From positions 1-35,961 of the forward strand of contig JAJRUN010000136.1 of assembly GCA_024277755.1 (NCBI GenBank): DNA of 35,961 bases, in the 5' to 3' direction. This DNA is from Gammaproteobacteria bacterium. GTDB lineage: Bacteria; Pseudomonadota; Gammaproteobacteria; Tenderiales; Tenderiaceae. This document shows positions 5,408 to 23,608 of this stretch, piece by piece; position 1 is the first letter of the stretch, and each line of letters opens with the position of its first letter. The translations under genes and the position numbers were made by a program. The notes under the pieces were generated by a model that saw nothing but the letters and a program-made list of their open reading frames with translations, did not search any database and was not told the DNA's origin.

Positions 5408-6712
5408 ATGGTTTTTGTTTTTCGATTTCTACGTTTTAATTCACTTGCCCGTGTGTTGTTAGCAAGCGTGCTTATGTCAGGTGTGGGCGCTGTTCAGGCG
5501 GGAGAGCCGCTTACCTTGAATAAGGCGGTGGCTGAGGCGCTGATGGCTAACCCCGGGTTGGCGGCTATTGAGGCGCGGGCCAAGGCCTTGGCTGAGATAC
5601 CGGAACAAGCCGATGCATTGCCCGACCCTGTGCTGTCAGTCAATATTGCCAACCTGCCGCTGGACAGTTTCTCTTTTACTCAGGAAGGCATGACGCAGTT
5701 TCAAGTGGGAATTACACAGGCGTTGCCATATCCCGGCAAGCTGGCCTTGCGTTCACAGGCGGCAAGTCAAGAGGCGAGAGCCGCTGAGTCTGATCTGAAA
5801 GACAGGCAGCTGCAATTGGTGCGTGATGTCAAAACCGTGTGGTGGAATCTCTTTTATCTGGACCGGGCACTGGATGTGATTGCCCGTAATCAGGTGTTGC
5901 TAAAACAGTTTGTCAATGTCGCAGAGACGCGCTACACGGTGGGGCGTGGCTTGCAACAGGATATTCTGTTGGCTCAACTGGAGTTGGCCAAGTTGAGTGA
6001 CAGCCTGATTCGTGTGCTGAACATGCGTGACAACCAGGTGGCGCGTCTGAATGTGTTGATGGATCACCCGGCCACCGGTTCAATCGAGCTGCCGCAATCT
6101 ATCGATGAAACCTTGCAAACACTGGTGAGTGCCGAGCTGTTGCAGCAACGTGCCGTGGCATCACGTCCCAGTCTGATGGCGCAGACGGAACGTATGGGGG
6201 CGGCACGCAGCCGTGTTGATCTGGCAAAAAAGGATTATGCACCGGATTTTAAAGTGGGCGCGGTATACGGCCTGCGCAACGGTAGCAACCCTGATGGCAG
6301 TCGTCGTGCCGATTTGGGGTCTATCCGTTTCAGCATGAACCTTCCCCTTTACAGCGGCAGCAAACAGGATCGCGCTGTTGATCAGCGCAATGCCGAGTGG
6401 ATGCAGCAGAAATATCGTTTGCAGGATCAGCGTAACCAGGTGGCTTCACAAGTGCAACAAGCCATGATTGATTACCGGCGTGCCGGTGAGCAGGTACAGC
6501 TGTTTCAGCAGGAGATTATTCCCCAGGCGCGCCAGACGGTGGATGCCATGCTGGCAGGCTATCAGGTGGGCAAGGTCGATTTTCTTAATCTGGTGCGCAG
6601 TCAGACCACACTTTATAACTACGAAACCCAATATTGGAACGCCCTGAGTGCAGCCAATCAGGCACTGGCCCGATTGATTGCCGCAGTGGGTGAGGAGAAT
6701 GTTCATGAATAA
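5408..6712 (+). CDS. cusC: Outer-membrane efflux channel (TolC/CusC family)
   Basis: This is the outer-membrane channel of a tripartite metal efflux pump. After a signal peptide (LARVLLASVLMSGVGAVQAG) come the two TolC-family repeats of long helices (AVAEALMANPGLAAIEARAK, then MAQTERMGAARSRVDLAKKD and a second coiled-coil half to residue about 430). The beta-barrel strand FSFTQEGMTQFQVGITQALP is also visible. The frame opens at 5375 with TTG, but that codon coincides with the likely promoter -10. ATG 5408 has AGGGA about nine bases upstream and yields the signal peptide directly, so it is preferred (434 residues). The stop overlaps the cusB start by eight bases. It is first in the cusCBA operon. 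Confidence 0.88.
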   Translation: MVFVFRFLRFNSLARVLLASVLMSGVGAVQAGEPLTLNKAVAEALMANPGLAAIEARAKALAEIPEQADALPDPVLSVNIANLPLDSFSFTQEGMTQFQVGITQALPYPGKLALRSQAASQEARAAESDLKDRQLQLVRDVKTVWWNLFYLDRALDVIARNQVLLKQFVNVAETRYTVGRGLQQDILLAQLELAKLSDSLIRVLNMRDNQVARLNVLMDHPATGSIELPQSIDETLQTLVSAELLQQRAVASRPSLMAQTERMGAARSRVDLAKKDYAPDFKVGAVYGLRNGSNPDGSRRADLGSIRFSMNLPLYSGSKQDRAVDQRNAEWMQQKYRLQDQRNQVASQVQQAMIDYRRAGEQVQLFQQEIIPQARQTVDAMLAGYQVGKVDFLNLVRSQTTLYNYETQYWNALSAANQALARLIAAVGEENVHE

Positions 6713-8231: not shown

Positions 8232-11200
8232 TATCATCGATGCCTCGTTGCGCAATCGATTTCTGATTATCATCGCTACCATCGTCATTATTGCCGGTGG
8301 TCTGTGGTCGATGAAAAATACGCCGCTGGATGCAATTCCTGATCTGTCTGATGTGCAGGTGATTGTCTTTACCGAATATCCGGGCCAGGCGCCGCAGGTG
8401 GTTGAAGATCAGGTTACTTACCCGCTCACCACGGCGATGCTAGCGGTGCCTAATGCCAAGGTGGTGCGTGGTTATTCATTTTTTGGTTACTCCTTTGTCT
8501 ACATTATTTTTGATGACGGCACCGATATGTACTGGGCCCGTTCGCGGGTGCTGGAATATTTAAATTACGTCAGCGGTCGTCTGCCTGATGGCTTAACACC
8601 GTCACTGGGGCCGGATGCCACTGGGGTGGGCTGGGTTTATGAATATGCCCTGGTGGATCGCACCGGCAACACTGATCTGGCGGAATTGCGTTCGATTCAG
8701 GATTGGTATTTGCGTTACCCCTTGCAGACCGTGGAAGGGGTATCTGAAGTGGCTTCCGTGGGTGGCTACGTCAAACAGTATCAGGTTGAAGTCGATCCCA
8801 ACGCACTGCTGGCCTACAATATCCCGTTATCGAAAATCAAACACGCCATCCAGCGATCCAATAATGATGTGGGTGGCAAACTGGTGGAAATGGCTGAGAC
8901 CGAATACATGGTGCGTGGCCTGGGCTACATCCAGTCGATTGATGATCTCAATGTCATCCCCGTGGGTGTGGATGACAACGGCATACCGATTCGTTTGCAG
9001 GATGTGGCGCATATTCATCTGGGGCCAGAGCTGCGTCGTGGTGTGGTGGAATTAAATGGTGAAGGTGAGGTGGCCGGTGGCGTGGTGATTATGCGCTACG
9101 GTGAAAACGCGATGGCGGTGATTGAAAAAATCCGCGCCAAGCTGGAAGAGCTGAAACCAGGTCTGCCTGAGGGGGTGGAGATTGTGCCGGTCTACGATCG
9201 TGGTGATCTGATCACCCGTGCCGTGGATAACCTTAAAGAAAAACTGATCGAAGAGATTATCGTCGTCAGCATTATCTGTATCCTGTTTTTGCTGCACGCC
9301 CGTTCCGCCCTGGTGGCGATTGTGTCACTGCCGATTGGAATTCTGCTCGCGTTTATCTTCATGAAATGGCAGGGCATTAACGCCAATATCATGTCGTTGG
9401 GGGGGATAGCCATTGCCATTGGCGCGATGGTGGACGGGGCGATTGTAATGATCGAAAATGCCCATAAACATCTGGAAAAAATGGTGGATGAAAAGGGGCG
9501 GGAGCTAACCTCGCCCGAGCGTTGGCGAGCCGTCACCAAGGCATCTCGAGAGGTTGGCCCGGCGCTGTTCTTTTCGTTGCTGATTATCACGGTTTCATTT
9601 CTGCCGGTGTTTACTCTGCAAGCGCAAGAAGGACGACTGTTTGCGCCTCTGGCGTTTACTAAAACCTATGCCATGGCGGCGGCGGCGATCTTGGCCATCA
9701 CATTGGTGCCAGTGCTGATGGGGTATTTTATTCGCGGCAAAATTCCGGCTGAAGCGAAAAACCCGGTCAATCGTTTTTTGCATTTTATTCATGTGCCGAG
9801 TTTGAATCTGGCCATTCGCTGGCGCTGGCTCACTTTGGGTCTGTCGTTGATTTTGTTGGCGGCTACTTTTTATCCGCTCAGCAAACTGGGCAGTGAATTC
9901 ATGCCACCGCTAAATGAGGGTGACATCCTTTATATGCCGACCACCTATCCCGGTATTTCTATCACCAAGGCCAAGGAGTTGTTGCAACAGACAGACAAGA
10001 TCATCAAGTCTTTCCCTGAGGTACACCATGTGTTTGGCAAAGTTGGTCGTGCTGAAACCGCCACTGATCCAGCACCACTGGCAATGCTGGAAACCACCAT
10101 TCGACTCAAGCCCAAAGACGCATGGCCTGATCCCGATAAATCCGTTAAAGAGTTGATGGATGAAATGGATGTGGCAATCAAGTTCCCTGGTTTATCTAAT
10201 GCCTGGACCATGCCGATCAAGACCCGTATCGATATGCTCTCTACCGGTATTAAAACCCCCATCGGTATCAAGGTCAGTGGCCCGGATTTGAATGTGCTGG
10301 AGAAAGTTGGCAGTGATATCGAGCAAGCCCTGCGACAGTTGCCGGACACACTCTCGGCCTTTGCCGATAAAGCGGCGGGGGGCTATTACCTCGACTTCGA
10401 TATCGATCGCGAAGAGGCTTCTCGTTATGGCCTGACCACCGGCGATGTGCAGGATGTGATTCAGACCGCCATTGGTGGCATGAACGTTACTCACACGGTT
10501 GAAGGGCTGGAACGCTACCCAATCAACCTGCGTTATCCGCGTGAACTGCGAGACAATCTCGACAGCCTCAAACGGGTATTGATCCCCACGCCGACGGGTG
10601 CACAGATACCGTTGTCGCTGGTGGCTGATCTGCAACTGCGTCGTGGACCACCGGGCATCAAGAGTGAAAACTCGCGCCCCAATGCCTGGATCTATGTCGA
10701 TATCAAAACATCGGATATTGGTGGCTACGTGGCAGAAGCGAAGAAAGTGGTGGCCAATCAGGTAGAAATCCCAGCGGGCTATAACCTGGTCTGGTCGGGT
10801 CAGTTTGAGTATATGGAACGAGCGGCTGAGCGTTTGCGCATCGTTGTACCTGCCACACTGCTGGTGATTTTTCTGCTGCTCTATTTAAACTTTCGCAACA
10901 TTACCGAGCCGTTGGTGGTGATGCTTTCAATTCCTTTTGGATTGATCGGTGGTTTTTGGCTGGTTTATCTGCTGGGCTTCAACCTTTCGGTTGCCGTGAT
11001 TGTTGGTTTTATTGCCCTGGCGGGGGTGGCGGCAGAGATTGGTGTGCTGGTGCTGACCTTTATCGATCAGGAAATTGCCAGGCGCCGCCATGACAGCGGC
11101 GGGCGTTTAAACACGGCTGAGATTATGGCGGCTGTGCATAAAGGCACCTCTGAACGTGTCCGTCCTATTGCCATGACAGCGGTTGCTATTATTGCTGGTT

Positions 11201-11370
11201 TGTTGCCCATTATGTGGAGCACCGGCACTGGCTCTGAAGTGATGCAACGTATTGCCGCACCGATGGTGGGAGGCATGGTGACGGTTACTTTTCTCTGTCT
11301 GTTGGTGTTGCCCGTTATTTACGGTGTGATATTGCAGCTGCAGGAAAAATTTAAACAGCAAGACTCGTAA
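8221..11370 (+). CDS. cusA: Heavy-metal RND efflux transporter, Cu+/Ag+ type (CusA)
   Basis: A proton-driven inner-membrane pump of 1049 residues, the full length for HME-RND proteins. It has 12 predicted membrane segments and two large periplasmic loops. The TM4 proton-relay motif GAMVDGAIVMIENAHKHLE contains Asp405, the same number as in E. coli CusA. The methionine triad that binds Cu+/Ag+ in CusA (Met573, 623 and 672 in E. coli) is matched by Met572 (LYMPTTYPG), Met622 (PLAMLETT) and Met672 (RIDMLSTG). That supports copper/silver rather than zinc/cobalt/cadmium specificity. The start ATG overlaps the cusB stop (ATGATCACTAG), indicating tight coupling. It exports metal from cytoplasm and periplasm through CusB and CusC. 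Confidence 0.95.
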   Translation: MITSIIDASLRNRFLIIIATIVIIAGGLWSMKNTPLDAIPDLSDVQVIVFTEYPGQAPQVVEDQVTYPLTTAMLAVPNAKVVRGYSFFGYSFVYIIFDDGTDMYWARSRVLEYLNYVSGRLPDGLTPSLGPDATGVGWVYEYALVDRTGNTDLAELRSIQDWYLRYPLQTVEGVSEVASVGGYVKQYQVEVDPNALLAYNIPLSKIKHAIQRSNNDVGGKLVEMAETEYMVRGLGYIQSIDDLNVIPVGVDDNGIPIRLQDVAHIHLGPELRRGVVELNGEGEVAGGVVIMRYGENAMAVIEKIRAKLEELKPGLPEGVEIVPVYDRGDLITRAVDNLKEKLIEEIIVVSIICILFLLHARSALVAIVSLPIGILLAFIFMKWQGINANIMSLGGIAIAIGAMVDGAIVMIENAHKHLEKMVDEKGRELTSPERWRAVTKASREVGPALFFSLLIITVSFLPVFTLQAQEGRLFAPLAFTKTYAMAAAAILAITLVPVLMGYFIRGKIPAEAKNPVNRFLHFIHVPSLNLAIRWRWLTLGLSLILLAATFYPLSKLGSEFMPPLNEGDILYMPTTYPGISITKAKELLQQTDKIIKSFPEVHHVFGKVGRAETATDPAPLAMLETTIRLKPKDAWPDPDKSVKELMDEMDVAIKFPGLSNAWTMPIKTRIDMLSTGIKTPIGIKVSGPDLNVLEKVGSDIEQALRQLPDTLSAFADKAAGGYYLDFDIDREEASRYGLTTGDVQDVIQTAIGGMNVTHTVEGLERYPINLRYPRELRDNLDSLKRVLIPTPTGAQIPLSLVADLQLRRGPPGIKSENSRPNAWIYVDIKTSDIGGYVAEAKKVVANQVEIPAGYNLVWSGQFEYMERAAERLRIVVPATLLVIFLLLYLNFRNITEPLVVMLSIPFGLIGGFWLVYLLGFNLSVAVIVGFIALAGVAAEIGVLVLTFIDQEIARRRHDSGGRLNTAEIMAAVHKGTSERVRPIAMTAVAIIAGLLPIMWSTGTGSEVMQRIAAPMVGGMVTVTFLCLLVLPVIYGVILQLQEKFKQQDS

Positions 11371-11409: not shown

Positions 11410-11931
11410 ATGAAAAAAACTGCACAATCATTATCAGGCATTACTTTCGCAGCCTTGTTGGCAACTGCCGGGCCGCTATATGCATCCGGTGATCATGGCC
11501 ATGATGAGCATGGCGGTGAACACAAATCTGAAATGAAACATGACGGTCATGATGCCAAGCAGGGGCATGATGAACATAAGTCTCACGCTGGTCATGAATC
11601 AGACATGGATAAAATGTTTCTGGTCAAAAAAGCGGTTGATGGTTATAACGTGAGTTTTCACGTCATGAAAGCCAAGCCTGGAAAAGAGATGGGCGGCAGT
11701 CACAATTTTATGATCAAGATTGAAAAAGATGGCAAGGCACTCACTAATGTCACCATGAACACCAAGGTGAAACATCCCAACGGCAGCTCAGAAACTAAAA
11801 AGGCCATGAAGATGGGGGAATGGATGATGGCCGGCTATGACCTGGGGCATAAAGGTAAGCACAAGATGATGATTTTGTTTAAGACTGCGGATGGCAAAAA
11901 ACACAGAGCAGGCATCTATTATCCTAAATAG
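11410..11931 (+). CDS. His/Met-rich periplasmic protein, putative copper-binding accessory of the Cus operon
   Basis: A 173-residue exported protein with signal peptide (KTAQSLSGITFAALLATAGPLYAS). A disordered His/Asp/Glu-rich segment follows (residues about 27-67, including HGHDEHGGEHKSEMKHDGHD). The C-terminal domain of about 105 residues (FLVKKAVDGYNVSFHVMKAK to HRAGIYYPK) contains MKMGEWMMAGYDLGHKGKHK. The folded part resembles small beta-sandwich periplasmic domains of the YtkA/FixH kind, but I would not assign a named family. It is 40 bases downstream of cusA and ahead of the operon terminator, where other bacteria carry CusF-like chaperones. This is a CusF position with a different-looking protein. 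A metal-buffering or delivery role is inferred from context and composition. Confidence 0.7.
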   Translation: MKKTAQSLSGITFAALLATAGPLYASGDHGHDEHGGEHKSEMKHDGHDAKQGHDEHKSHAGHESDMDKMFLVKKAVDGYNVSFHVMKAKPGKEMGGSHNFMIKIEKDGKALTNVTMNTKVKHPNGSSETKKAMKMGEWMMAGYDLGHKGKHKMMILFKTADGKKHRAGIYYPK

Positions 11932-12031: not shown

Positions 12032-12769
12032 TTGGGTGATGTAAGACAACAACCTAAGGGGCGGTATTTATATATAGATGTGTGGCGCGGTGTCGCCATT
12101 GTGATGATGATTGTTTTTCATTTTTTCTATGATCTTAATAATTTTCAGTATGTAGAAATAGATTTCAATCGCGAACCTTTTTGGCTCTATTTTCGTACTT
12201 TGATTGTTACCCTTTTTCTCTGTCTGGTGGGTATCAGCCTTCAGCTATCCACTGGTCACAGGCTTAATCTTCCGCGTTTTCTTCGTCGTTTTGGGTTGCT
12301 GATTGGGGCGGCTGCGCTCGTTAGTATTGGCACTTATTTAGTTTTACCAAACACGCCAATTTTTTTTGGGGTGCTTCACTTTATTGCACTGGCAAGCGTG
12401 CTGGGGCTGTTGTTCAGGCGGTTTTTCTGGATGAATCTGGTCTTGGGGCTGGGAATCATAATCGCCGGGATCCAATTTCAAGCGGGCTTGTTTGAGTCAC
12501 CATTGTGGTATTTGGTGGGTTTAATGCGTGACCGACCTTTTACAAGCGATTATGTGCCTTTATTCCCCTGGTTCGGTGTTGTTTTGATCGGAATGTTTTT
12601 GGCGTGTGTCATAAAAAAATACGGGCTGTTGAGTACCTCAGCTCAGGGGCGGAATAATATTGTAAATACGCTGGCCTGGGGGGGGAAGCATGGTTTGTTG
12701 ATTTATCTTCTTCACCAGCCTTTGTTATTTGGCGGCTTCTATCTGGTGGAATTTATCAGTACTTTTTAA
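12032..12769 (+). CDS. DUF1624 / heparan-alpha-glucosaminide N-acetyltransferase-like membrane protein
   Basis: The 245-residue protein opens with RYLYIDVWRGVAIVMMIVFH, the signature start of the DUF1624/HGSNAT catalytic family (polytopic acyltransferase-like proteins). It contains about six to seven hydrophobic segments. The conserved FHFFYDLNNF, LFPWFGVVLIGMF and the terminal GGKHGLLIYLLHQPLLFG are all present, and length is normal for the short bacterial members. The substrate is unknown. The start is a TTG with GGTCGGA upstream; an ATG nearby (12027) is in another frame and closes at once. It stands alone between the Cus terminator and the chemoreceptor and has no evident link to metal genes. 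Confidence 0.82.
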   Translation: MGDVRQQPKGRYLYIDVWRGVAIVMMIVFHFFYDLNNFQYVEIDFNREPFWLYFRTLIVTLFLCLVGISLQLSTGHRLNLPRFLRRFGLLIGAAALVSIGTYLVLPNTPIFFGVLHFIALASVLGLLFRRFFWMNLVLGLGIIIAGIQFQAGLFESPLWYLVGLMRDRPFTSDYVPLFPWFGVVLIGMFLACVIKKYGLLSTSAQGRNNIVNTLAWGGKHGLLIYLLHQPLLFGGFYLVEFISTF

Positions 12770-12912
12770 CGCCTGTCTTGACGACTTAAAATAAAGGTTT
12801 TCAAGGTGTTGAACTGTTTGGTTTGAGGCCAACGCCGGTATCTTTTTCCTTGTTTGTCTGCCTGTTTTTCAAAGCGCTGTCTCAAGTGAATATAGTGTAT
12901 TTAAAAGGCAGC

Positions 12913-12939
12913 TAAAGCAATTTCCTATGCCCCCGATAT
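12913..12939 (+). promoter_or_regulatory. Candidate sigma-28 (FliA) promoter of the chemoreceptor operon
   Basis: TAAA, a 15-base spacer and CCCGATAT lie about 65 bases before the chemoreceptor start. The sigma-28 consensus in enterobacteria is TAAA-N15-GCCGATAA, so the -35 core and six of eight -10 bases match at exact spacing. Chemoreceptor genes are classic sigma-28 targets, which supports the call. Confidence 0.55.
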
Positions 12940-13003
12940 AACGTTTGAGTAAGGGAATGTATTACTACATCCATGATCGGCGTGGATGTGAAAGGGGCTT
13001 TAC

Positions 13004-14623
13004 GTGAATATATTTTTAAATCTATCGATTCGCTTCAAAATATTGATAATTGTGGTGGCAGGCATTATCGGTCTGGCTGTGACGCTGGCCTTTAACTTCA
13101 ATGCAACCAGTAGTAATAAAGTCACCCTTGAAAAAGTCCGCGATATTTATTTTCCGACTCTTGAACGTCTGGATGCGGATCTGGTGCGTCTGGATAAAAT
13201 CAAAGATATCTATAGTGCCGCGGTCATTGAGGGGGAGGAAGACCTGCTCAAGGATGCTGCAGATCAAGCCAAGGCGTTGATACAGGCTTTGAATGAGGTC
13301 GCTAGGCTGGACAGTAAGGAGCAGGAGGTTGTAGCCAGACTTCAGCAGGCTTTCACTGTCTATACTGAAAATGCCAACACCCTCAGCCTTGGCATGATTA
13401 ACGAAACGCTTGATATGCAAACGGCTCAACCGGCTTTGGTTGCGATGAATGCACGCTGGGAGGCCTTGGAAAAAGAGTTACACGATTTTCGTGACCGCAG
13501 TTATCAACTCTTCACAGGTGCGATAGATGGGGCCAATGAGTCCTCTGCTGAGGCGCTGAGCCTGAGCGTCATTATTGGCTTTGTAACGGCGTTGATTCTT
13601 GCGATGACTGGATTTTTTATTGGTAATTCGATTAGCCGTAACATTACCACTGTAGTGAATTCACTTAATGAGATGGCCTCGGGAGATGGTGATCTGACTC
13701 AACGCCTCAAGAGTAACAGTAATGATGAAATCGGTGCGTTGGTAAAAGGCTTCAACACCTTTATCAGCAAGCTTCAAGAAGTGATCGCTGAAGTCACCGG
13801 CTCAACGGATCGGGTGGCTGAGGCTGCGGCAGGTATGAAGCGGGTCTCTGAAATGAGTGCTATGGGCATGAGTTCACAGCAGGAGGAGATTCAGTTAGTG
13901 GTCACGGCGATGGCTGAAATGACAGCTTCGGTGGATGAGGTTTCCGGTAGCGCCGGTCGGGCATCGGACACCGCTAATACTGCGAGTTCCGAGGCAATAG
14001 CTGGCAAGCAGGTGGTTGAGGAAAACATGCAGGCGATCAGACGTCTGGCTGCAGATGTCGAACATGCGTCAGGAGTGATACAGGAGCTGGATAGCCATAG
14101 TGAATCGATTGGCAAGGTGCTTAATGTTATTCGTGACATTGCTGAACAGACCAATTTATTGGCGCTCAATGCCGCTATTGAAGCGGCTCGCGCAGGTGAG
14201 CAAGGAAGAGGCTTTGCCGTGGTTGCTGATGAGGTGCGCACACTGGCCACGCGAACCCATGAATCAACACGCGAAATTAACGATATGATCTCGCGCCTTC
14301 AGAGTGGTACTCAAAGTGCCGTACAAACCATGACCAAGAGTCGTGAGCAGGCCCAGGTGAGCGTGGATCAGGCGGCGCGGGTGGGTGATTCGCTGGAGCG
14401 TATTGCTCAGGGCGTCGAGAATATCAGTGGCATGAATATCCTGATCGCCAGTGCGGCCGAGCAACAGACGGCTGCCGTGCGGGAGATCAATAATAATATC
14501 GTTAATTTGGGGCAGGTGGTCAGTCAGGTGACGGAAAGCGCCCATATTGCCGAAGGTGATAGCGAAAAACTGGCAGTGCTGGCTGAGCAGTTAAAGACGC
14601 AAGTGTCGGTGTTTAGGGTGTGA
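13004..14623 (+). CDS. Methyl-accepting chemotaxis protein
   Basis: A 539-residue transmembrane chemoreceptor. The first membrane helix spans residues about 11-30. A mostly helical periplasmic sensor of about 155 residues follows ([40 protein letters not shown]). The second helix is about 183-205, then a HAMP domain ([31 protein letters not shown]) and the cytoplasmic signalling hairpin. The invariant tip [20 protein letters not shown] followed by [15 protein letters not shown] is intact. No C-terminal NWETF tether is present. Start is GTG with AAGGGG upstream. The porin gene begins five to 44 bases later and a small periplasmic binding-like gene follows. The ligand may therefore be something taken up through that porin; this is inference. 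Confidence 0.95.
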
Positions 14624-14667
14624 GCTGAATGCGCGAATATAAAATAATTCAAGGAGAACAGTTGCAA

Positions 14668-15750
14668 ATGAAAAGTAAACTAACATCTATTGTCGGTATG
14701 GCTGTGTTCGGGGCAGTTCTAACCGCTCCGGCGTTGGCGACGGACTGGACCGAACGTACCAATATTTCCGGTTTCTACTCTTCTCGTTATAGCGTGACTG
14801 ATGAGGAGGCCTATTTTCATGGCGATAGAGACTCAGGTATCAACAATGAGGGAAGTTTTCAGGGCACCAAGCTGGGGTTGACGGTTACCTCACAGGTTAA
14901 TGATGACCTGAGTGTGGCAATGTTGCTGATGTCTGCAGACGGTCATGATGAATACAGTACCCATGTGGATTGGGCATTTGCCAGTTTCAGGTTGAGTGAT
15001 GAGTTCACCCTGCGTACCGGCAAGCTTAAGTTTCCGGTGGGTTTGGTTAACGAATATGTTGATGTGGGGGTGACCTATCCCTGGATTACTGCACCGCTGC
15101 TGCTTTATTCTGAGGAAGTTACTGGGGCGCAGGCAACCCGTGAAGCCTATACTGGCGCTAGTCTGTTATGGGAGGGTGAGGCCGGTGACTGGAGCCTGGG
15201 AGGGGACCTCTTTTTTGGTCAGGTAGATCTTGAAGGGATGAGTGTTAAGGGAACGCTGGGCGTTACGGCTCGTGCCAACTGGGATGATACGGTTGAACTT
15301 CAGGTCTCTACTTATGAGGGTGAAATGAACACAGACCCTGCCGGTGCCTTGGGGATGATGAATGAAAAAGCGCATTCGGCCACACTTTTGGGTGTCAAGG
15401 TTGACTGGAACGATATTGTCGCCTACGCAGAAACGGCCAAGGTAGAGATGGATGTGACCATGATGGGGGTAAATCCAGGTGATTCTGATTCATGGTATGT
15501 CACCTTGGGGTATCGAATGGGCAAGTTTTTGCCTCATATTACCCGCCAGGATTGGGAGCGGGATAATGGCGATAATCATCAGATTTCAACCTTGGGGCTT
15601 GCTTATAGTCTTAGCGATTCTTTGGTAATAAAGGTGGAACAAAGCCGTATAGACACAAATAATTTTGCGACTCAGCCGGGGTTGTACGAAAGTTCGCCTT
15701 CCAGCGGTTCTGTCAATATGACCAGCGTTGCTGTTGATGTCATTTTCTAA
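14668..15750 (+). CDS. Porin-like outer-membrane beta-barrel protein
   Basis: The product has a signal peptide (LTSIVGMAVFGAVLTAPALA) and about 335 mature residues of alternating aromatic/polar beta strands ending in the typical VNMTSVAVDVIF with terminal Phe. The segments FRLSDEFTLRTGKLKFPVGL and RTNISGFYSSRYS are like those of porins found with phosphate/phosphonate-type operons. The frame is open from 14629, but ATG 14668 has AAGGAGA ten bases upstream and begins the signal peptide, so it is preferred (360 residues). It follows the chemoreceptor closely and precedes a PstS-like small protein by 12 bases. Substrate is unknown. Confidence 0.8.
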   Translation: MKSKLTSIVGMAVFGAVLTAPALATDWTERTNISGFYSSRYSVTDEEAYFHGDRDSGINNEGSFQGTKLGLTVTSQVNDDLSVAMLLMSADGHDEYSTHVDWAFASFRLSDEFTLRTGKLKFPVGLVNEYVDVGVTYPWITAPLLLYSEEVTGAQATREAYTGASLLWEGEAGDWSLGGDLFFGQVDLEGMSVKGTLGVTARANWDDTVELQVSTYEGEMNTDPAGALGMMNEKAHSATLLGVKVDWNDIVAYAETAKVEMDVTMMGVNPGDSDSWYVTLGYRMGKFLPHITRQDWERDNGDNHQISTLGLAYSLSDSLVIKVEQSRIDTNNFATQPGLYESSPSSGSVNMTSVAVDVIF

Positions 15751-15762
15751 AGGAGCCGGGAT

Positions 15763-16209
15763 ATGTATCTTAAATTGATCAAATGGAATGTAACTCGGGT
15801 TGCGGTCTCTGTTATGTCACTTGTTTTTCTGCTGGCGGGACAGGCGTTTGCCGATGTGGCGGTGGTGGCCAATAAGGGAATTGGTGTCGATTCGATCACT
15901 GCCAAAGAGGCTAAAAAAGTTTGGCTGGGAAAAAGTAAATCATTGGCGGGAACAGGTGTGAAGTTGGCAGATTTATTGCCGGGTAATGCGTCGCGAGACC
16001 ACTTTTACTCCACCGTTGTCAAAAAGAGTGAAAAGAAGCTTAAGGCTTATTGGGCCAAGATTGTGTTTGCCGGAAAAGGCACGCCGCCAAAAGCCTTTGC
16101 TTCAGACGCTGAGGTAATCAGTTGGGTGGCATCAACGCCTGGGGCTGTTGGCTATGTGGATAGCGCAGCCGCGGATGACTCAGTGAAAGTATTGATGATC
16201 AGTAAATAG
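15763..16209 (+). CDS. Small periplasmic phosphate-binding-like (PstS-like) protein
   Basis: A 148-residue exported protein with signal peptide (VAVSVMSLVFLLAGQAFADV). A single lobe follows of the kind seen in short PstS-like proteins: GVDSITAKEAKKVWLGKSKS, RDHFYSTVVKKSEKKLKAYW and VISWVASTPGAVGYVDSAA. The last segment is characteristic of phosphate ABC transporter substrate-binding proteins, but the protein is half their size and no ABC transporter genes are nearby. It lies 12 bases after the porin with AGGAGCC as ribosome site. It may bind an oxyanion and present it to the chemoreceptor or porin; that role is inferred from the operon. Confidence 0.75.
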   Translation: MYLKLIKWNVTRVAVSVMSLVFLLAGQAFADVAVVANKGIGVDSITAKEAKKVWLGKSKSLAGTGVKLADLLPGNASRDHFYSTVVKKSEKKLKAYWAKIVFAGKGTPPKAFASDAEVISWVASTPGAVGYVDSAAADDSVKVLMISK

Positions 16210-16227
16210 AACTGAGAAACGCTGAAG

Positions 16228-16285
16228 ATGCAATTGGGCACAGAACAAAGTTTATGTCGTTGTCTGTGCCCCAATTGCATTTTTG
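16228..16285 (+). terminator. Terminator after the chemoreceptor-porin operon
   Basis: ATGCAATTGGG-CACAGA pairs with TCTGTGCCCCAATTGCAT across an 18-base loop with one bulged base, followed by TTTTTG. This is a long, classic hairpin plus U-run 18 bases after the stop. The rest of the 482-base gap up to 16691 holds only a weak hairpin near 16300, the CusR-like box and a promoter; the short open frame there is not convincing. Confidence 0.85.
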
Positions 16286-16554
16286 ATGCTATCACCTGAG
16301 CCGCTTTGCAACGGGCGGCTTCGAAGTAATTATCGATGTACGTTTTGAAATTATTACCGGTTGGTTAAAACGCTTCATCAGGCAAATTTTTATTGCCGAT
16401 ATCCAGCCAGTATTACGCTTGTATGGCTCCTCTCACCTCAGATACTTAGATTAATCACTAACCTAAAAAAGTCAGTTACTCGCCTAGTGCGTCTACTTTT
16501 TGTCCGATCTATATTCACGTTCAACTGTTTTTCCAGGATTAAGGTGATGCAAAC

Positions 16555-16608
16555 ATTACAAAACTGTAATGCATGTGTCACGCGATAGACAGAGACAAAC
16601 ACTAGACT
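16555..16608 (+). promoter_or_regulatory. CusR-like operator and promoter of the AhpD/YHS/PII operon
   Basis: ATTACA-AAAC-TGTAAT (16555-16570) is a palindrome with perfect six-base arms. Aligned with the cusC promoter site (5321-5336) it differs at two of 16 positions. Identity continues downstream: TGTAATGCA, three different bases, GTCAC, six different bases, GACAG. A candidate -10 (TAGACT, 16603-16608) falls within one base of the cusC -10 position in this alignment. Such spacing conservation over 50 bases points to the same activator. Confidence 0.7.
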
Positions 16609-16691: not shown

Positions 16692-17291
16692 ATGTCAATT
16701 ATCGCTACCCCCTCTGGGCATAAATTTCCGTGGTATGTGAAGCTTTTCTTTTGGAATCAGAAACGTAAATATGGTGCAATCCTGGAGCCGGCACGGTTGT
16801 GGGGGCGTTCCCCCAAGGTGTTTGCCACACTGGCATCGCTCTACGGTGCGTTTGATCGTAGTTCCTCGCCGCTTGAACCTGCTTTAAGAACATTGGTCAC
16901 TGTGCGGGTGTCACAGATCAATTGGTGTCCCTTTTGTGTCGACATCAATTCCGCCACGGCATTGAAGCGCGGCATTAGTGATGAAAAACTTAGCTGCCTG
17001 GCAGGTTATGCAGATAGCGATCTTTATAGCGATAAAGAAAAGGCGGCTCTCGCCTATGCCGAGGCCGTAACTTACAGCGATCGCCAAGTCAGCGATGAGA
17101 ACTTTGGTGCCTTGCGCAGCCATTTTAATGATGATGCCATCATCGAACTTACCGGGTTGATCGGCTTTCAAAATATGTCGAGCAAATTCAATGCCGCCCT
17201 GGGTGTTAAAGCGCAGGGGTTTTGTGCCATTGCACCGCAGCCTGTTATGGATAATTTAAAGGAAGAGGGACGTGATGATGCTGCCACTTAA
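16692..17291 (+). CDS. AhpD/carboxymuconolactone-decarboxylase family protein
   Basis: A 199-residue cytoplasmic helical protein. The AhpD core is clear: LEPALRTLVTVRVSQINWCP followed by FCVDINSATALKRG, with the redox pair Cys79-Pro-Phe-Cys82 and a conserved acidic/His-like relay position (DINS) as in alkylhydroperoxidase-like proteins. A second part (EKAALAYAEAVTYSDRQVSD, IIELTGLIGFQNMSSKFNAA) completes the fold. Members act as thiol peroxidases or reductases or have unknown substrates. Strong AGGAGGAG precedes ATG 16692. It is first in an operon driven by a CusR-like promoter and overlaps the next gene by 20 bases. A role in handling copper-induced oxidative or thiol stress is inferred. Confidence 0.85.
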   Translation: MSIIATPSGHKFPWYVKLFFWNQKRKYGAILEPARLWGRSPKVFATLASLYGAFDRSSSPLEPALRTLVTVRVSQINWCPFCVDINSATALKRGISDEKLSCLAGYADSDLYSDKEKAALAYAEAVTYSDRQVSDENFGALRSHFNDDAIIELTGLIGFQNMSSKFNAALGVKAQGFCAIAPQPVMDNLKEEGRDDAAT

Positions 17292-17766
17292 TGATAGCTG
17301 TCCTGTGTGTGGTATGCAGCCGGAAGTTGAAGTTGTTTCTGTTGAGCATCATAAAATGTATTTTTATTTCTGCTCTGAGCAGTGCAGAGAAACCTTTATC
17401 GCCCGTCCCAGCCTTTATGTTGCCAAAATAGGCAAACAACGAGACGTGATTTTGAAACGGCGAACCATGTATTTTTCAGAGTCGTTAGGGGCTGGTGTTG
17501 GTGATCTTCTCATCCCTTATTTAAAAGATTTGATGGGGGTGAAGGAGGTGACGGTTGAGGCTGAAAAAATAGAGATCTCTTATGATTTGTTACAGGTGAC
17601 TGAGAGGCAGATTGAAAAGGCGCTGGAGGATGTCGGTGTGCAACTTGGTGGCAGTTGGCTGGAGCGTTTGCGTCGTGGATGGGTGAACGATAGCGAAGAA
17701 ATAGAACTGGATAATCTGGCAGAACCGCCAGCACCGTGTTGTAACCGAACGCTGCCAAAAACCTGA
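17272..17766 (+). CDS. YHS-domain protein with a degenerate HMA-like second domain
   Basis: Residues about 8-46 form a YHS/TRASH metal-binding domain: DSCPVCGMQPEVEVVSVEHH followed by YFYFCSEQCRETFIARPSLY, with CxxCGM and CxxxC ligands. Residues about 62-120 (SLGAGVGDLLIPYLKDLMGV, KEVTVEAEKIEISYDLLQVT) have the beta-alpha-beta-beta pattern of a heavy-metal-associated (HMA) domain but lack its CxxC. The tail ends APCCNRTLPKT, providing another Cys pair. Three start codons in a row (GTG 17272, ATG 17275, ATG 17278) follow GGAAGAGGGA; spacing favours one of the ATGs. The gene overlaps the AhpD gene by 14 to 20 bases. A cytoplasmic metallochaperone-like role for copper is plausible. Confidence 0.8.
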   Translation: MMMLPLNDSCPVCGMQPEVEVVSVEHHKMYFYFCSEQCRETFIARPSLYVAKIGKQRDVILKRRTMYFSESLGAGVGDLLIPYLKDLMGVKEVTVEAEKIEISYDLLQVTERQIEKALEDVGVQLGGSWLERLRRGWVNDSEEIELDNLAEPPAPCCNRTLPKT

Positions 17767-17779
17767 CGGAGATAAAGAA

Positions 17780-18106
17780 ATGGACTACCGAAAAATAACC
17801 GCAATTATCCGCAGCGATGTGCTGGAGAAGGTTGAAAAAAAATTACAAGAGATCGGCGTTCAGGGCATTAGTGTGACCAAGGTAAAAGGCTATGGCGAAT
17901 ATGCGGATTTTTATTCTAAAGACTGGATGGTAAGCCATGCGCGGGTTGAGATATTCACCAGTGCGGCACAGGCCGACGTTATTGCCCTGGCCATTATGGA
18001 TACGGCGTATGAGGGATTGGAAGGTGATGGCATTGTTGCGGTGCTGCCGGTGGAAAAACTCTACCGGATACGAACAGGTTCTGAAGCAGCAATCGATGAA
18101 ATTTAA
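17780..18106 (+). CDS. PII-like signalling protein (metal-efflux-associated type)
   Basis: At 108 residues it has the PII fold pattern: first strand YRKITAIIRSDVLEKVEKKL, VQGISVTKVKGYGEY (matches GMTVTEVKGFG of GlnB), RVEIFTSAAQADVIALAIMD and a C-terminal VLPVEKLYRIRTGSEA matching VIRIRTGE of GlnB. The T-loop region is short and lacks the uridylylated Tyr51, so classic nitrogen signalling is unlikely. The B-loop GLEGDGIVAV corresponds to TGKIGDGKIFV. A PII group (PII-NG) linked to heavy-metal efflux genes has been described, and this fits that group. It lies 13 bases downstream of the YHS gene. Which nucleotide or metal it senses cannot be read from the sequence. Confidence 0.82.
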   Translation: MDYRKITAIIRSDVLEKVEKKLQEIGVQGISVTKVKGYGEYADFYSKDWMVSHARVEIFTSAAQADVIALAIMDTAYEGLEGDGIVAVLPVEKLYRIRTGSEAAIDEI

Positions 18107-18127
18107 CAAATAAATCAAGGAAAAAGT

Positions 18128-18745
18128 ATGCCTGAAATTATTCCCAATCTGCACCCGGTTTTTGTCCATTTTACGGTGGCATTGTTATCACTGGCTGTTG
18201 GACTTTTTATTATTACGCCATTTGTTAAGTCGCCACTCAAAGAACAATGGCAAACGGTTGCCCGATGGTCGTTGTGGTTTGGTGCGGCAATCACTATTTT
18301 CACTGGTTTTGCCGGGCTTGATGCCTATAACACGGTTGCCCACGACACCCCGTCTCATCTGGCAATGACGGATCATAAAAACTGGGCCATTGTCACCATT
18401 GTGTTGTTTTTGTTATTGGCTGGCTGGTCTATTGTTTTGGTGCGTAAGGGTAAAAAACTGGGGACGGCATTTGTAGTCTGCATGCTTGTTGCAGGGGGTG
18501 TATTGGCCTCAACCGCATGGAGTGGTGGTGAGGTGGTCTACCGCTACGGTTTGGGGGTGATGTCATTACCAAAGGCTGAAGGTGAAGGGCATAGTCATTC
18601 GCATGCGGGCGGTGGTGGTCATGGTGATGCCAGTAGTAGTGGGGGGGAAGGTCATGATGAGGCGATGAATGATATGGATATGGACTTCAGTGGTATGGAT
18701 GAGATGGCGAGTGAAAATGCGGATGGGCATGAGCATCAACATTAG
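18128..18745 (+). CDS. DUF2231 inner-membrane protein with His/Met/Asp-rich tail
   Basis: The 205-residue protein begins PNLHPVFVHFTVALLSLAVG, the hallmark of DUF2231. It has four hydrophobic segments (about 11-30, 46-65, 85-105, 112-130) with conserved His in LHPVFVHF and DHKNWA. The C-terminal 60 residues are hydrophilic and rich in His, Gly, Asp and Met (HSHSHAGGGGHGD, NDMDMDFSGMDEM, GHEHQH), resembling the Met/Asp tail of CusB. The family function is unknown; some members may bind heme or metal in the membrane. It follows the PII-like gene by 21 bases with AAGGAAAAAGT as ribosome site. The tail suggests periplasmic copper binding if exposed there. Confidence 0.85.
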   Translation: MPEIIPNLHPVFVHFTVALLSLAVGLFIITPFVKSPLKEQWQTVARWSLWFGAAITIFTGFAGLDAYNTVAHDTPSHLAMTDHKNWAIVTIVLFLLLAGWSIVLVRKGKKLGTAFVVCMLVAGGVLASTAWSGGEVVYRYGLGVMSLPKAEGEGHSHSHAGGGGHGDASSSGGEGHDEAMNDMDMDFSGMDEMASENADGHEHQH

Positions 18746-18848
18746 TCTTGAGAGTGATGCAAAGAATCCGATTGGTGGCAGTGTGGATGAACATCCGGCA
18801 ACCAATCTGGAAAATATGCTGACAGCGGGTGTTGATATGGCATTTTAG
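18723..18848 (+). CDS. Possible 41-residue acidic small protein
   Basis: The frame overlaps the end of the DUF2231 gene by 23 bases and encodes GMSINISLESDAKNPIGGSV followed by DEHPATNLENMLTAGVDMAF. It is soluble, acidic and has no recognised domain. An alternative start is ATG 18729. The ribosome site is weak, so expression would depend on coupling to the upstream gene. It may equally be non-coding. Confidence 0.3.
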   Translation: MGMSINISLESDAKNPIGGSVDEHPATNLENMLTAGVDMAF

Positions 18849-18920
18849 TTTTATTTTTAGGAATGGCTCGGGGCGGTCAGGATGACGTCCCAGGCTTGAT
18901 TGCAAAACAAAGGAGGGGGA

Positions 18921-19067
18921 ATGCCACACGAAATCATGAACACAATGCATGAAACGGCTATGCCGGGTAGCCATCACGGGTTGTTTTGGGCTGCAGTAGC
19001 AGCGGTGTTTGCGTCGTTGTTGCTTCTGGTTTGGTGGTTTGGAATTCGTGCTAAACGGACTAAATAG
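18921..19067 (+). CDS. Small single-pass membrane protein (48 residues)
   Basis: An ATG directly follows AGGAGGGGGA, one of the best ribosome sites in the window. The product has a Met/His-rich N-terminus (MPHEIMNTMHETAMPGSHHG), one transmembrane helix (LFWAAVAAVFASLLLLVWWF) and a basic end GIRAKRTK. The charge pattern predicts the N-terminus outside, so Met and His would face the periplasm. It lies between the DUF2231 and beta-propeller genes on the same strand. No homologue is recalled. A copper-related membrane accessory role is inferred from residues and context. Confidence 0.7.
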   Translation: MPHEIMNTMHETAMPGSHHGLFWAAVAAVFASLLLLVWWFGIRAKRTK

Positions 19068-19116
19068 ACGGGTCTGATTCGCGCTAAGAAAAATACTGAT
19101 ACAGAAAGGGGGGGGG

Positions 19117-20166
19117 ATGAACAAATCAGGGGTTATTTTCACATTACTTTTACTGTTGCCGTCGCTGTTGCTGGCCGCGCCATTGATGTATGTCCCGACC
19201 GGAAATACAAACAACATTGTGATCATTGATCTAAATACAGACAAGATCGTGGGTCGTATCGACGAGTTGGAAAATGCCCATGGCCTCTCCGGTAGCCCCA
19301 ATAGTGAGTATCTGGTTGCTGGAAGCATGAAACCAGCAGAAAGTTCTGTACCGCCAAGTTCAGGCAAACCGGCGGTGGTTAGCGACGCTGAACATGCAGC
19401 ACATCATGCCGGTGCTGATAAGGCAACCAGCAGAAATACAAGCTATCTTTCAATCGTGCACCCGAAACATGGCCATGTCATGCGTCGTATTGCGGTGCGT
19501 GGCCTCACTCATCATACGGCTGTATCCCCAGGTGGGCGGTTTGCAGCGGCAGTCCATTCCGGCGCTGGTGGGATCTCAGTCGTCGATTTGAAAACAAGTT
19601 CAGTGATTAAAATCATTGATACGGGGCTGTGGCCAAATTATGCCGTCTTTTCAAAAGACGGTGAATACCTTTATGTCTCCAACTCTGGTGCGAACAGTAT
19701 TAGTGAAATTGATACGGCTAATTGGAAAGTTGTGCGTGAATTAACAGTTGGAAAAGGCCCTGAACATATGGTGTTAGGAGTGCACGGGCAGAGGCTTTAT
19801 AGCGCCAATAAGGGGGATGCGACAGTATCTGTTATCGATCTTGGCAGTGGCCAGCCTGGCCAGGTGTATAAAGTGGGTGATAAACCACATGGAATCGATG
19901 TTTCCGATGACGGCCGCTGGTTGTTTGTTGCGAGTAAAAAGGCTGGGCTTGTGACGAAAATTAATCTCGTTAATGGGATTTCTAAAAATGTTGAACTGAA
20001 ACCTGCTCCTTATCATCTGGCTTATATCAACAACCTGGATAAGATTTATGTCTCCAGTCGCAAGGCTCCGAAAATATGGGTGCTTGATCCTGTTACGTTA
20101 GCAATAAAACAGACGATAGATTTGCCTCAAGGTGTGGCACATCAAATGGTGATTCGCAATGAATAG
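19117..20166 (+). CDS. YncE-like periplasmic beta-propeller protein
   Basis: A 349-residue exported protein with signal peptide (GVIFTLLLLLPSLLLAAPLM). It has six to seven YVTN-type beta-propeller blades: MYVPTGNTNNIVIIDLNTDK, YLYVSNSGANSISEIDTANW, RLYSANKGDATVSVIDLGSG, WLFVASKKAGLVTKINLVNG and IYVSSRKAPKIWVLDPVTLA. An insertion after blade 1 (residues about 70-105) contains DAEHAAHHAGADKATS, a possible metal site. Such propellers serve as scaffolds or, in copper and nitrous-oxide systems, as metal-binding proteins. There is no catalytic signature. Start ATG is preceded by a G-run (AAAGGGGGGGG). It is last in the CusR-box operon; no clear terminator was found in the following 248 bases. Confidence 0.82.
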   Translation: MNKSGVIFTLLLLLPSLLLAAPLMYVPTGNTNNIVIIDLNTDKIVGRIDELENAHGLSGSPNSEYLVAGSMKPAESSVPPSSGKPAVVSDAEHAAHHAGADKATSRNTSYLSIVHPKHGHVMRRIAVRGLTHHTAVSPGGRFAAAVHSGAGGISVVDLKTSSVIKIIDTGLWPNYAVFSKDGEYLYVSNSGANSISEIDTANWKVVRELTVGKGPEHMVLGVHGQRLYSANKGDATVSVIDLGSGQPGQVYKVGDKPHGIDVSDDGRWLFVASKKAGLVTKINLVNGISKNVELKPAPYHLAYINNLDKIYVSSRKAPKIWVLDPVTLAIKQTIDLPQGVAHQMVIRNE

Positions 20167-20344
20167 TGAGTTATTAGGGTTTCTCTAATGATTCATGAAT
20201 ACGCATATTGAGTTCAAATCTTCTGCTTTTGCGTTGCTGATCTTCGCAATAGTCGGCTGTTAAGTGCGGTCTGCGCCTTGAATCGACAGGTTTTGAATCT
20301 CAATTTGAGGCAGTCATAATTTTTTAGATGTGCCCATAAGTTTG

Positions 20345-20376
20345 TTGACTTGTGTGTAGCTCCTAGGATCTACACT
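20345..20376 (+). promoter_or_regulatory. MerR-type promoter and operator upstream of the MerR-family gene
   Basis: TTGACT (20345-20350) and TACACT (20371-20376) are separated by 20 bases, the over-long spacing typical of MerR-regulated promoters. The spacer holds a 22-base palindrome (20354-20375) with perfect arms GTGTAG and CTACAC and a central CCTAGG; only one base pair mismatches. It lies 40 bases before the regulator start, so regulator and copA are probably co-transcribed from it. Confidence 0.8.
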
Positions 20377-20414: not shown

Positions 20415-20819
20415 ATGTTAACGGTTAGTGAGTTGTCAAGGGCGACGCAAGTGACACCCGATGCGATACGACATTATGTACGTTTTGGTTTGTTGGTGCC
20501 GTCACGTAATCCTGATAATGGTTACAGGTTATTTAACGGTCATGACATAAATAAAGTTAAATTTATTTGTCGTGCAAAAGGAATTGGTTTTTCGTTGCGT
20601 GATATTCAGATTATTTTCGACCACAGTAATGATGGCCAGTCACCTTGCCCGGCTGTGCGAGAGATGATTCAACATCGTATTAATGAAAACAGAAATAAAC
20701 TGGCGGAATTAAACAATTTGCAAAACAGAATGGATGCGGCATTGGCAAGGTGGGAAACAATGCCGGATGGTGAACTTGATAGTGAGGCGATTTGTCACTT
20801 GATTGAGGCCATTACCTGA
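20415..20819 (+). CDS. MerR-family heavy-metal-responsive regulator
   Basis: A 134-residue regulator. The N-terminal winged helix (LTVSELSRATQVTPDAIRHY, GLLVPSRNPDNGYRLF) binds the promoter. A dimerisation coiled coil (MIQHRINENRNKLAELNNLQ) follows, then a short metal-binding end. Candidate ligands are Cys78 (QSPCPAVREM), Cys127 and the adjacent His128 (AICHLIE). It does not have the CueR Cys-loop-Cys pattern (two Cys about eight apart near the C-terminus). Metal specificity is therefore uncertain despite the copper ATPase downstream, and relatives include Zn/Cd/Hg/Pb sensors. It is expected to twist the long-spacer promoter at 20345 when metal is bound. copA starts 68 bases downstream. Confidence 0.85.
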   Translation: MLTVSELSRATQVTPDAIRHYVRFGLLVPSRNPDNGYRLFNGHDINKVKFICRAKGIGFSLRDIQIIFDHSNDGQSPCPAVREMIQHRINENRNKLAELNNLQNRMDAALARWETMPDGELDSEAICHLIEAIT

Positions 20820-20887: not shown

Positions 20888-23608
20888 ATGAATACCGATC
20901 CGGTTTGTGGCATGGATGTAGCGGCAGGTAAAGGTTATCAGGTAGATCATAATGGTCAGGTCTATCAATTTTGCAGTCAGGGTTGTCAGCGAAAGTTTAA
21001 GGCCAACCCTGCGCAATACGTGCAAACGGAATCACTCAAAGACCCTGTCTGTGGTATGGCGGTCACTGAAGCATCAACACACCATATAGAACATGAGGGC
21101 AAAAATATTTATTTTTGCAGTGCCGGTTGTTTTAAAAAGTTTTCTGCCGCTCCTGAGCAATACCTTTCGAAACAGTCGAGTGAGAAAAAAGGTGGTTATT
21201 GTTGCAGTAGCAAAAAGACTGAGGTAACCGAACCAAAGAAAAAGTCGCACAGTTGTTGCGGTGGAAAAGAGGCTTCAGCACCTGATGCTAAAGCTGAATC
21301 AGAGAGCTCTCCCCATAGCTGCTGCGGTGGCAAACAGCATGGCCATCATGGGGGAACAACACTCGCCAAGCCGGTGGATGAGTCGGCAATTTACACCTGC
21401 CCTATGCATCCCGAGATCGAACAACAAGGGCCGGGCAGTTGCCCTAAATGCGGCATGGCGTTGGAACCAAAGGGCGTTCCCCTTATTGCCATAAAAATGC
21501 AATATACCTGCCCCATGCATCCTGAAATTATTCAGGACCACCCAGGCTCCTGCCCTAAATGCGGTATGGCACTAGAGGCTACCACGGTAGAAGCGGAGGA
21601 TGATACGACCGAGCTGGATGACATGACGCGCCGTTTTAAGATTGGTGCACTGTTTGCCATTCCGGTCTTTTTCAGCGCTATGGCGGCTGAGTTCTGGCCA
21701 GAAGCGATGGCTGAATTGATCGACCCCAATTTGCGTCAGTGGATTGAGATGATCCTGTCGGCACCTGTAGTCATCTGGTGTGGCTGGATATTCTATGAGC
21801 GCGCTATTCAGTCGGTAGTTACACGTAACCTCAATATGTTCACTCTGATTGGACTGGGTGTGTCGGTGGCTTGGATCTATAGTTTAGTTGCCACGGTTTT
21901 TCCCGGTATTTTTCCGCCCGAGGTGTTTAACAAGGTCGGGGTTGTGCCTGCCTATTTTGAGGCGGCGGCAGTCATTACCGTACTGATATTGCTAGGCCAG
22001 GTGTTGGAGCTGCGGGCACGTAGCCAGACCAACGCCGCGATTAAACTGCTGCTGGGGCTGGCACCTAAAACCGCCCGTATCGTGCGCGAAGATGACACAG
22101 AAGAAGATATCCCTATGGAGCATGTGCAGGTGGGTGATACGTTGCGGGTGCGTCCCGGTGAAAAAATTCCCGTCGATGGCATCACCATTGATGGCGAAAG
22201 CAACGTTGATGAGTCGATGGTGACGGGCGAACCGTTACCCGTTGCCAAGCGGGCGGGTGAACGTCTGATCGGCGCTACGGTTAATGGCACCGGCGGTTTA
22301 TTGATGCGGGCTGAAAAGGTGGGTTCAGATACCTTGTTATCGCAGATCGTCAATATGGTCGCCGAAGCCCAGCGCTCCCGCGCCCCCATCCAGAGACTGG
22401 TCGATACGGTCTCCGGCTATTTTGTTCCGGTCGTGATCTTCGTTTCGATTATCACCTTTATTATCTGGAGTCTGTTGGGGCCGGAACCCGCTATTGCCTA
22501 TGCCGTCATCAACGCCGTGGCGGTGCTGATTATCGCCTGTCCCTGTGCGCTGGGATTGGCGACACCGATGTCGATCATGGTGGGCACGGGTAAAGGCGCG
22601 ATGATGGGTGTGTTGTTTAAGAATGCCGAAGCACTGGAGGTCTTACGCAAAGTAGACATTCTAGTGGTGGATAAAACCGGCACACTCACCGAAGGCAAAC
22701 CCAAGTTGGTTTCGGTTACGGTGACTGAGCGGTTTCAGGAAAACGATAACCTGCGCCTTGCCGCCACACTGGAGCGGGGCAGCGAACATCCGCTGGCTGA
22801 GGCCATTGTGCGGGGGGCTGAAGAGCGAGGCGTGGCGTTAACTCAAGCTGAAGATTTTCAATCTGTTACCGGCATGGGGGTAACAGGCGTTGTCGATGGT
22901 CGCCAGGTGGCGCTGGGTAATATCAAATTGCTAGAGAGCTTGAACATCGACGCGGGTGTTCTGCCACAACAAGCAGACCACCTGCGATCTGAAGGGCAGA
23001 CCGTGATGCTGTTGGCCATCGACGGCAAGGCGGCAGGATTGATTGGTGTGGCTGATCCCATCAAGGAGACCACCCCCGAAGCGATTCGTGATCTGCATGG
23101 CGAGGGTATCAAAATAGTGATGCTTACGGGTGACAGTCGCAAGACCGCTGAGGCGGTGGCCGCCAAGCTCGATATCGACCAAATCCATGCCGAAGTACTG
23201 CCGGAGCAGAAGGCCGAAGTGGTCAAACAGCTTCAGGCCGAAGGGCATATCGTCGCCATGGCCGGTGATGGCATCAATGACGCGCCAGCACTGGCTCAAG
23301 CCCATGTCGGTATTGCCATGGGAACGGGAACAGACGTTGCAATGGAGAGTGCGGGCGTTACCCTGGTTAAAGGTGATCTGCGTGGCATCGTCCGGGCCAG
23401 ACGCCTGAGCCGGGCCACCATGCGCAACATTCGTCAAAACCTCTTTTTTGCTTTTATCTACAACGCTGCGGGTGTGCCAATCGCCGCCGGGCTGCTCTAT
23501 CCTGCATTCGGGCTGTTGCTTTCTCCCATCTTTGCAGCGGCAGCGATGGGGTTCAGCTCAGTGTCGGTAATTAGCAATGCGCTGAGATTAAAAAGGGTGA
23601 AATTGTAA
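20888..23608 (+). CDS. copA: Cu+-exporting P1B-type ATPase with tandem YHS and HMBD domains
   Basis: A 906-residue pump. In order: two YHS domains ([15 protein letters not shown] at the start, [13 protein letters not shown] at about 53) and a Cys-rich linker with GGYCCSSKK and two [16 protein letters not shown] motifs. Two HMBD modules follow (YTCPMHPEI ... [11 protein letters not shown]), then eight membrane helices. Core motifs are complete: TGEP actuator, CPC ion site (Cys551-Pro-Cys553), phosphorylated Asp595 in [20 protein letters not shown] nucleotide-binding HP motif and [20 protein letters not shown] hinge. Helix 7 [13 protein letters not shown] and helix 8 [15 protein letters not shown] mark the Cu+ (P1B-1) subgroup. 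It lacks a canonical N-terminal HMA (MxCxxC) domain, which the YHS/HMBD array probably replaces. It exports Cu+ from the cytoplasm. Confidence 0.93.

Follow-up and report, generated by a model that had tools for sequence, protein, structure and literature searches.

The window analysed here (all 35,961 nucleotides (nt) of the gammaproteobacterial contig JAJRUN010000136.1, to which all coordinates below refer unless another contig or locus is named) carries at 16692–20166 six genes in one direction on the forward strand, encoding in order an AhpD-like protein, a protein with YHS and HMA-like parts (YHS-HMA), a PII-like signal protein, a DUF2231 protein, a 48-amino acid (aa) membrane peptide and a beta-propeller. 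A sequence-only reading of the same DNA had proposed these genes as a candidate new copper-response system under a CusR-like promoter. With fair but not high confidence, we read them as an accessory operon that CusR controls within a copper/silver efflux island, and we take its propeller to be a probable copper-binding protein.

Gene order, promoter and conservation of the operon

The first gene (16692–17291) encodes an AhpD/CMD-family protein with a CPFC (CxxC) motif, identified by Pfam and NCBIfam models and ortholog alignment. It overlaps by 17 nt the core gene of the island, encoding YHS-HMA (17275–17766), in which Pfam, alignment and predicted fold point to a TRASH-like cysteine cluster joined to an HMA fold without CxxC and to a C-terminal CCN. 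After 13 nt follows the PII-like protein of PII-NG type (17780–18106; Pfam and comparison with canonical PII), and after a further 21 nt the DUF2231 four-helix membrane protein with a His/Met/acidic C-terminal tail (18128–18745; Pfam and predicted model). The single-pass membrane peptide with a Met/His-rich N-terminus (18921–19067; an open reading frame (ORF) with homologues in loci L032 and L033) begins 175 nt downstream, and another 49 nt separate it from the gene of a predicted periplasmic, seven-bladed YVTN-type propeller (19117–20166; Pfam YNCE-type match and homologue alignments). Pfam matches above cut-off were obtained for the CMD, P-II, DUF2231 and YNCE-type propeller families, and an Rfam scan of the window returned no RNA element. 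The genes named in the sequence-only reading are thus present and co-directional, with predicted locations in cytoplasm, membrane and periplasm; of its 'six or seven' genes six stand, and the seventh, a 39-aa ORF at 18729, was rejected as probably not a gene, having no homologue in the loci searched. Its description of overlaps or short gaps holds throughout except for the 175 nt before the membrane peptide.

A perfect palindrome, ATTACAAAACTGTAAT (ATTACA-N4-TGTAAT), stands at 16555–16570, 137 nt upstream of the AhpD gene, and with a GTCA half-site makes up a CusR-type box at 16555–16580 in the operon's promoter region. A second such box (5321–5346, with one mismatch in its palindrome at 5321–5336) lies between cusR and cusC on the same strand, and the extended pattern occurs only at these two places in the genome assembly, which is incomplete (2.65 Mb, 85% complete). 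Neither 60 Markov-simulated windows nor 400 kb of genome sequence used as control contained a perfect box. The palindrome resembles the CusR/CopR sites of Pseudomonas, to which it is closer than to the E. coli CusR site (PMC11195947). Relatives have the box upstream of cusR/cusC as well as upstream of the YHS-HMA gene where that gene comes first, and in one locus (L059) a single box lies between the two divergent genes. The shared CusR-like promoter proposed earlier is borne out by these patterns, which suggest that CusR would bind both boxes and that copper or silver would switch the operon.

Both ends of the transcription unit can be placed by prediction. Upstream, a terminator-like hairpin followed by a T-run (about 16229–16283, forward strand; minimum free energy −32.5 kcal/mol and z-score −5.55 for 16215–16295) would close the preceding porin/PstS-like unit and set the operon apart from it. 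Downstream, a MerR-type promoter (20344–20375, forward strand; TTGACT, a 20-bp spacer with a dyad, TACACT) starts a merR-copA unit, and it is kept between propeller and merR in seven relatives as TTGACC, a 20-bp spacer and a TACACT-like element. Because merR and copA have this conserved promoter of their own, we regard them as conserved neighbours, and the operon as probably ending upstream of merR.

Homologues of YHS-HMA were present in 35 of the 369 genomes of a class sample. CopA, CusA, PcoA or CusRS accompanied 25 of 37 YHS-HMA loci versus 1 of 20 control windows of 20 kb taken from other parts of contigs in related and survey genomes (p = 3e-6, a value that assumes independent loci, a few of the 37 sharing a genome or genus); DUF2231 was found in 11 and MerR in 13 of the 37, each versus 0/20 controls. 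The association with copper/silver genes is supported by these counts. Conserved co-occurrence, which the sequence-only reading had made its own test, was likewise found, each relative keeping only some of the components. The order is cusCBA, His/Met protein, AhpD, YHS-HMA, DUF2231, CopA in L110; YHS-HMA, PII, DUF2231, propeller, two merR, copA in L024; and YHS-HMA, PII, DUF2231, membrane peptide, merR, copA in L032. AhpD also stands immediately 5' of YHS-HMA in a distant family (L109, L110). At L125 (9739–11033), YHS-HMA and PII lie beside a shortened propeller, with no other copper gene in the sequence examined.

Cytoplasmic and membrane components

The AhpD-like protein has a CMD domain with its CxxC (CPFCVDIN). 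All six AhpD orthologues carry Asn where we would expect, on our understanding of the AhpD motif, the catalytic His that follows the CxxC.

In YHS-HMA the YHS match fell below the Pfam gathering score (20.9 vs 30.3 bits), and the cysteines of a YHS/TRASH motif, C-x20-C-x3-C, are present, C12, C33 and C37 being invariant in 27 sequences. Cysteine occurs at positions 9, 12, 33, 37, 155 and 156 only, with none in the HMA part. The predicted model (predicted local distance difference test score 86) contains a beta-alpha-beta-beta-alpha-beta HMA domain that matches CopZ and CopA with a TM-score of up to 0.86 on the target. The protein would thus share the HMA fold of CopZ-type copper chaperones, but it lacks their MxCxxC metal loop and carries in addition a YHS motif at its N-terminus and a helix at its C-terminus. 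That it replaces CopZ is unsupported, short HMA ORFs still being present in its own genome. In a mycobacterial cyclase a YHS domain is a probable copper sensor (PMC4626032). The adjacent CopA-type P1B ATPase (20888–23608, forward strand) has tandem YHS (PVCGM) and CPMHP-type N-terminal domains, two motifs of each kind, with two Cys-rich linkers (CCGGK) rather than HMA CxxC domains and no MxCxxC, and this makes a YHS-based partnership between the two proteins plausible; a literature search for YHS with CopA returned nothing on point.

The DUF2231 protein is predicted to form a four-helix bundle with a disordered 60-residue tail containing 8 His and 5 Met, and several of its membrane-proximal His are invariant. 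Loops 1 and 3 carry positive charges, which by the positive-inside rule would place this tail in the periplasm. The predicted model had no significant match in the PDB, and a literature search for DUF2231 with copper found none. By the same rule, the basic C-terminus of the membrane peptide, which is kept in L032 and L033, predicts a periplasmic N-terminus. Since the DUF2231 tail and the Met/His-rich end of the peptide would both face outwards, most of the predicted metal ligands would be periplasmic.

The PII-like protein scored 60.7 bits against the P-II domain (cut-off 25). Compared with two canonical GlnB/GlnK-type PII proteins of the same genome, it has lost seven residues of the T-loop and the equivalents of Gln39 and Lys90, which we take to be ligand residues of canonical PII. 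With its PII fold, shortened T-loop and neighbouring RND and copper genes it fits the PII-NG group, although here the gene is also placed between YHS-HMA and DUF2231, and the likeness is one of sequence features and linkage. The link of this group to metal RND pumps is already known: in the account that PMC7726332 gives, citing Sant'Anna et al. 2009, PII-NG genes cluster with heavy-metal RND genes, and in Geobacter cobalt induces a PII-NG gene together with its RND pump (PMC7726332). Within the genome studied here a 67% identical paralogue (L031, contig C40, 5984–6313) starts at the end of the cusA of a second cusCBA, and homologues lie within copper gene clusters on Burkholderiaceae plasmids.

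Such linkage and co-induction favour the model of the sequence-only reading, in which the operon would sense or buffer copper in the cytoplasm while PII binds CusA or CopA and tunes export. PII is kept in only 6 of the 37 YHS-HMA loci, however, its canonical ligand residues are lost and most predicted metal ligands lie in the periplasm, which leaves this model doubtful, though the best placed of the alternatives to an accessory operon with a copper-binding propeller.

The propeller and its histidine pattern

Seven conserved histidines in the propeller, not remarked on earlier, are the most notable feature of the operon. The pattern was first seen in ten orthologues and then aligned in 30 homologues from the class, where H55, H132, H133, H217, H258 and H300 were present in 30/30 and H342 in 29/30 (one gap); H147 (29/30) and N174 (30/30) are similarly conserved, and a His-rich insertion (H93, H96, H97) occurred in only 17 of the 30. 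From blade 2 on, the conserved His are spaced 41–42.5 residues apart, at the predicted start of the inner strand. As a sequence pattern they occupy six of the seven blades: blade 2 carries an adjacent pair, blade 3 lacks one and each of the others has one.

Seven His bind the CuZ centre of NosZ; one blade supplies two of them and another blade none (PMC11573801). Profile alignment with NosZ (E-value 1.5e-5) paired THH/DTHHP, PHG/PHG, PYH/PLH and AHQ/GHL, and profile comparison with a genuine lactonase-type NosZ (L-NosZ; 786 bits) gave an E-value of 1.4e-9. The candidate ligands of L-NosZ, whose roles follow from alignment to NosZ, run by blade as H, HH, none, H, H, H, H, the order found in our propeller. 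The operon protein thus resembles lactonase-type (clade III) NosZ (NF052460) in its YVTN propeller and in its His pattern by blade, but it is 349 aa long, ends after the propeller with no C-terminal CuA cupredoxin domain and resides in copper-resistance loci. Because the CuA domain is missing, it is not a NosZ.

Copper genes also adjoin propellers of this kind elsewhere. CopA, CusA, PcoA or PcoB were encoded in 15 of 29 propeller genome loci, for which only 1.5-kb flanks were covered, and a P-type ATPase gene lay within about 4 kb of the propeller on six of six marine alphaproteobacterial plasmids inspected. Annotation of the plasmid homologues goes no further than 'YncE family' or 'lactonase-like', and their genes either adjoin copper-translocating ATPases or lie at most about 4 kb away. 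A literature search for YncE or beta-propeller proteins with copper returned nothing on point. AztD, a zinc metallochaperone, likewise comes from a metal operon and is a periplasmic propeller that bears a His-rich tract (PMC6689063), but the protein described here scores 20.7 bits against a cut-off of 400 for that family and has a copper rather than a zinc neighbourhood.

YVTN propellers are common scaffolds, and a structural or protein-binding role without metal, the hub His serving packing or another ligand, would suit both the closest solved YVTN relative, a surface-layer protein, and the best NCBIfam match, a PQQ-associated propeller. That solved relative has none of the hub His at these positions in the printed alignment, whereas the homologues of our propeller keep seven evenly spaced His almost without exception and are linked to copper ATPases; we consider a metal-free scaffold unlikely. 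A redox enzyme of NosZ or thiocyanate dehydrogenase type, for example a cuprous oxidase or an oxidoreductase of nitrogen or sulfur compounds, would account for the His layout shared with L-NosZ and for weak profile matches to NosZ and thiocyanate dehydrogenase in the PDB. Thiocyanate dehydrogenase is itself a copper propeller enzyme, but it is much longer, and the match covers only about two blades (E-value about 1e-3). A 349-aa protein without CuA, with no clear electron-transfer partner in the operon and surrounded by copper efflux genes, makes such an enzyme quite improbable.

We therefore return to a propeller that probably binds copper in a cluster of hub His, the ring suggesting, by analogy with NosZ, an uncharacterised mode of copper binding outside the cell membrane. 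More tentatively, and short of an even chance in our estimation, it may found a family, so far uncharacterised, of copper proteins that reside in the periplasm and belong to copper-resistance loci of Gamma- and Alphaproteobacteria, with a polynuclear site in a NosZ-type seven-His hub, no CuA and a role in storage, transfer or Cu(I) oxidation.

The efflux island and the proposed role of the operon

The operon lies between two sets of copper genes. Upstream, cusR and cusS (3148–5253, reverse strand; family-model scores) encode a two-component system in which CusS scored above the cut-off of a Cu(+)/Ag(+) kinase model, and CusR above the heavy-metal regulator subfamily cut-off and below that of the CusR equivalog (375 vs 420 bits). 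They are followed on the forward strand by cusC, cusB and cusA (5375–11370; family-model matches) and a gene for a His/Met-rich secreted protein (11410–11931; NCBIfam scan and neighbourhoods of relatives), which follows cusA in relatives too. Between these and the operon, genes for a DUF1624-like membrane protein, a chemoreceptor, a porin and a PstS-like protein occupy 12032–16209, some of which also adjoin the operon's relatives in L033, L041 and L104. On the downstream side, the MerR-family regulator (20415–20819, forward strand), encoded by a conserved neighbour in a separate unit and carrying Cys52, Cys78 and Cys127, scored between the ZntR, CueR and MerR models and below all their cut-offs. 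The island shares with the CusRS-CusCFBA system a CusR-type box between cusR and cusC, cusCBA and a neighbouring CopA-type ATPase, but has in addition a second operon with a CusR box, whose six genes are uncharacterised or repurposed.

In the accessory-operon reading, a rise in periplasmic copper or silver would lead CusS-CusR to turn on cusCBA and the operon together. The exported propeller would probably hold copper in a hub His cluster arranged as in the seven-His site of lactonase-type NosZ; together with the tail of DUF2231 and the Met/His-rich end of the membrane peptide, it could trap copper on the periplasmic side of the inner membrane. In the cytoplasm, YHS-HMA would probably bind Cu(I) through its YHS cysteines and partner the adjacent CopA; judged from family and neighbourhood, the PII-NG protein probably acts on the RND pump, while thiol damage is probably dealt with by the AhpD-like protein.

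Several points weigh against this account. The metal is assigned from neighbouring genes, and silver or another soft metal may be bound instead. All six genes occur together only in the window, the gene content of relatives being mosaic, and 12 of the 37 YHS-HMA loci had no copper gene in the sequence examined, some of them on short contigs. In L023 AhpD and PII survive only as short fragments (10077–10169 and 10720–10863), through decay or an assembly fault, beside intact YHS-HMA and DUF2231, and this reduction marks both as dispensable. The YVTN repeats make the blade register ambiguous: two profile alignments leave a choice of register, and the L-NosZ alignment is itself shifted by one blade against the H, HH, none, H, H, H, H reading. 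Finally, the propeller falls far below every curated full-length family cut-off (L-NosZ 56.8 vs 700 bits, NosZ 19.6 vs 625, YncE 60.8 vs 400, PQQ-associated 108.9 vs 287). That mosaic content could also mean that unrelated passengers have gathered on a metal-resistance island and have no function in common, but recurring order, overlaps, short gaps and a common CusR box before the first gene, even where that gene differs, make this the least probable of the readings.

The newness claimed in the sequence-only reading is thereby divided. The association of PII-NG with RND pumps (PMC7726332), CusRS-CusCBA and YHS-type CopA are already known, whereas the operon as a unit and a hub-His propeller in copper loci are apparently undescribed within the literature searched. 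A conserved, uncharacterised accessory operon is thus added to the Cus copper/silver response, bringing testable roles for several protein families of unknown function. The wider propeller family on marine alphaproteobacterial plasmids deserves a study of its own and, being carried there, is open to investigation in cultivable hosts. Should the His ring of the propeller indeed bind copper, hub sites of the NosZ kind would not be confined to nitrous-oxide and thiocyanate metabolism, and these simpler propellers could be relevant to the origin of the CuZ site.

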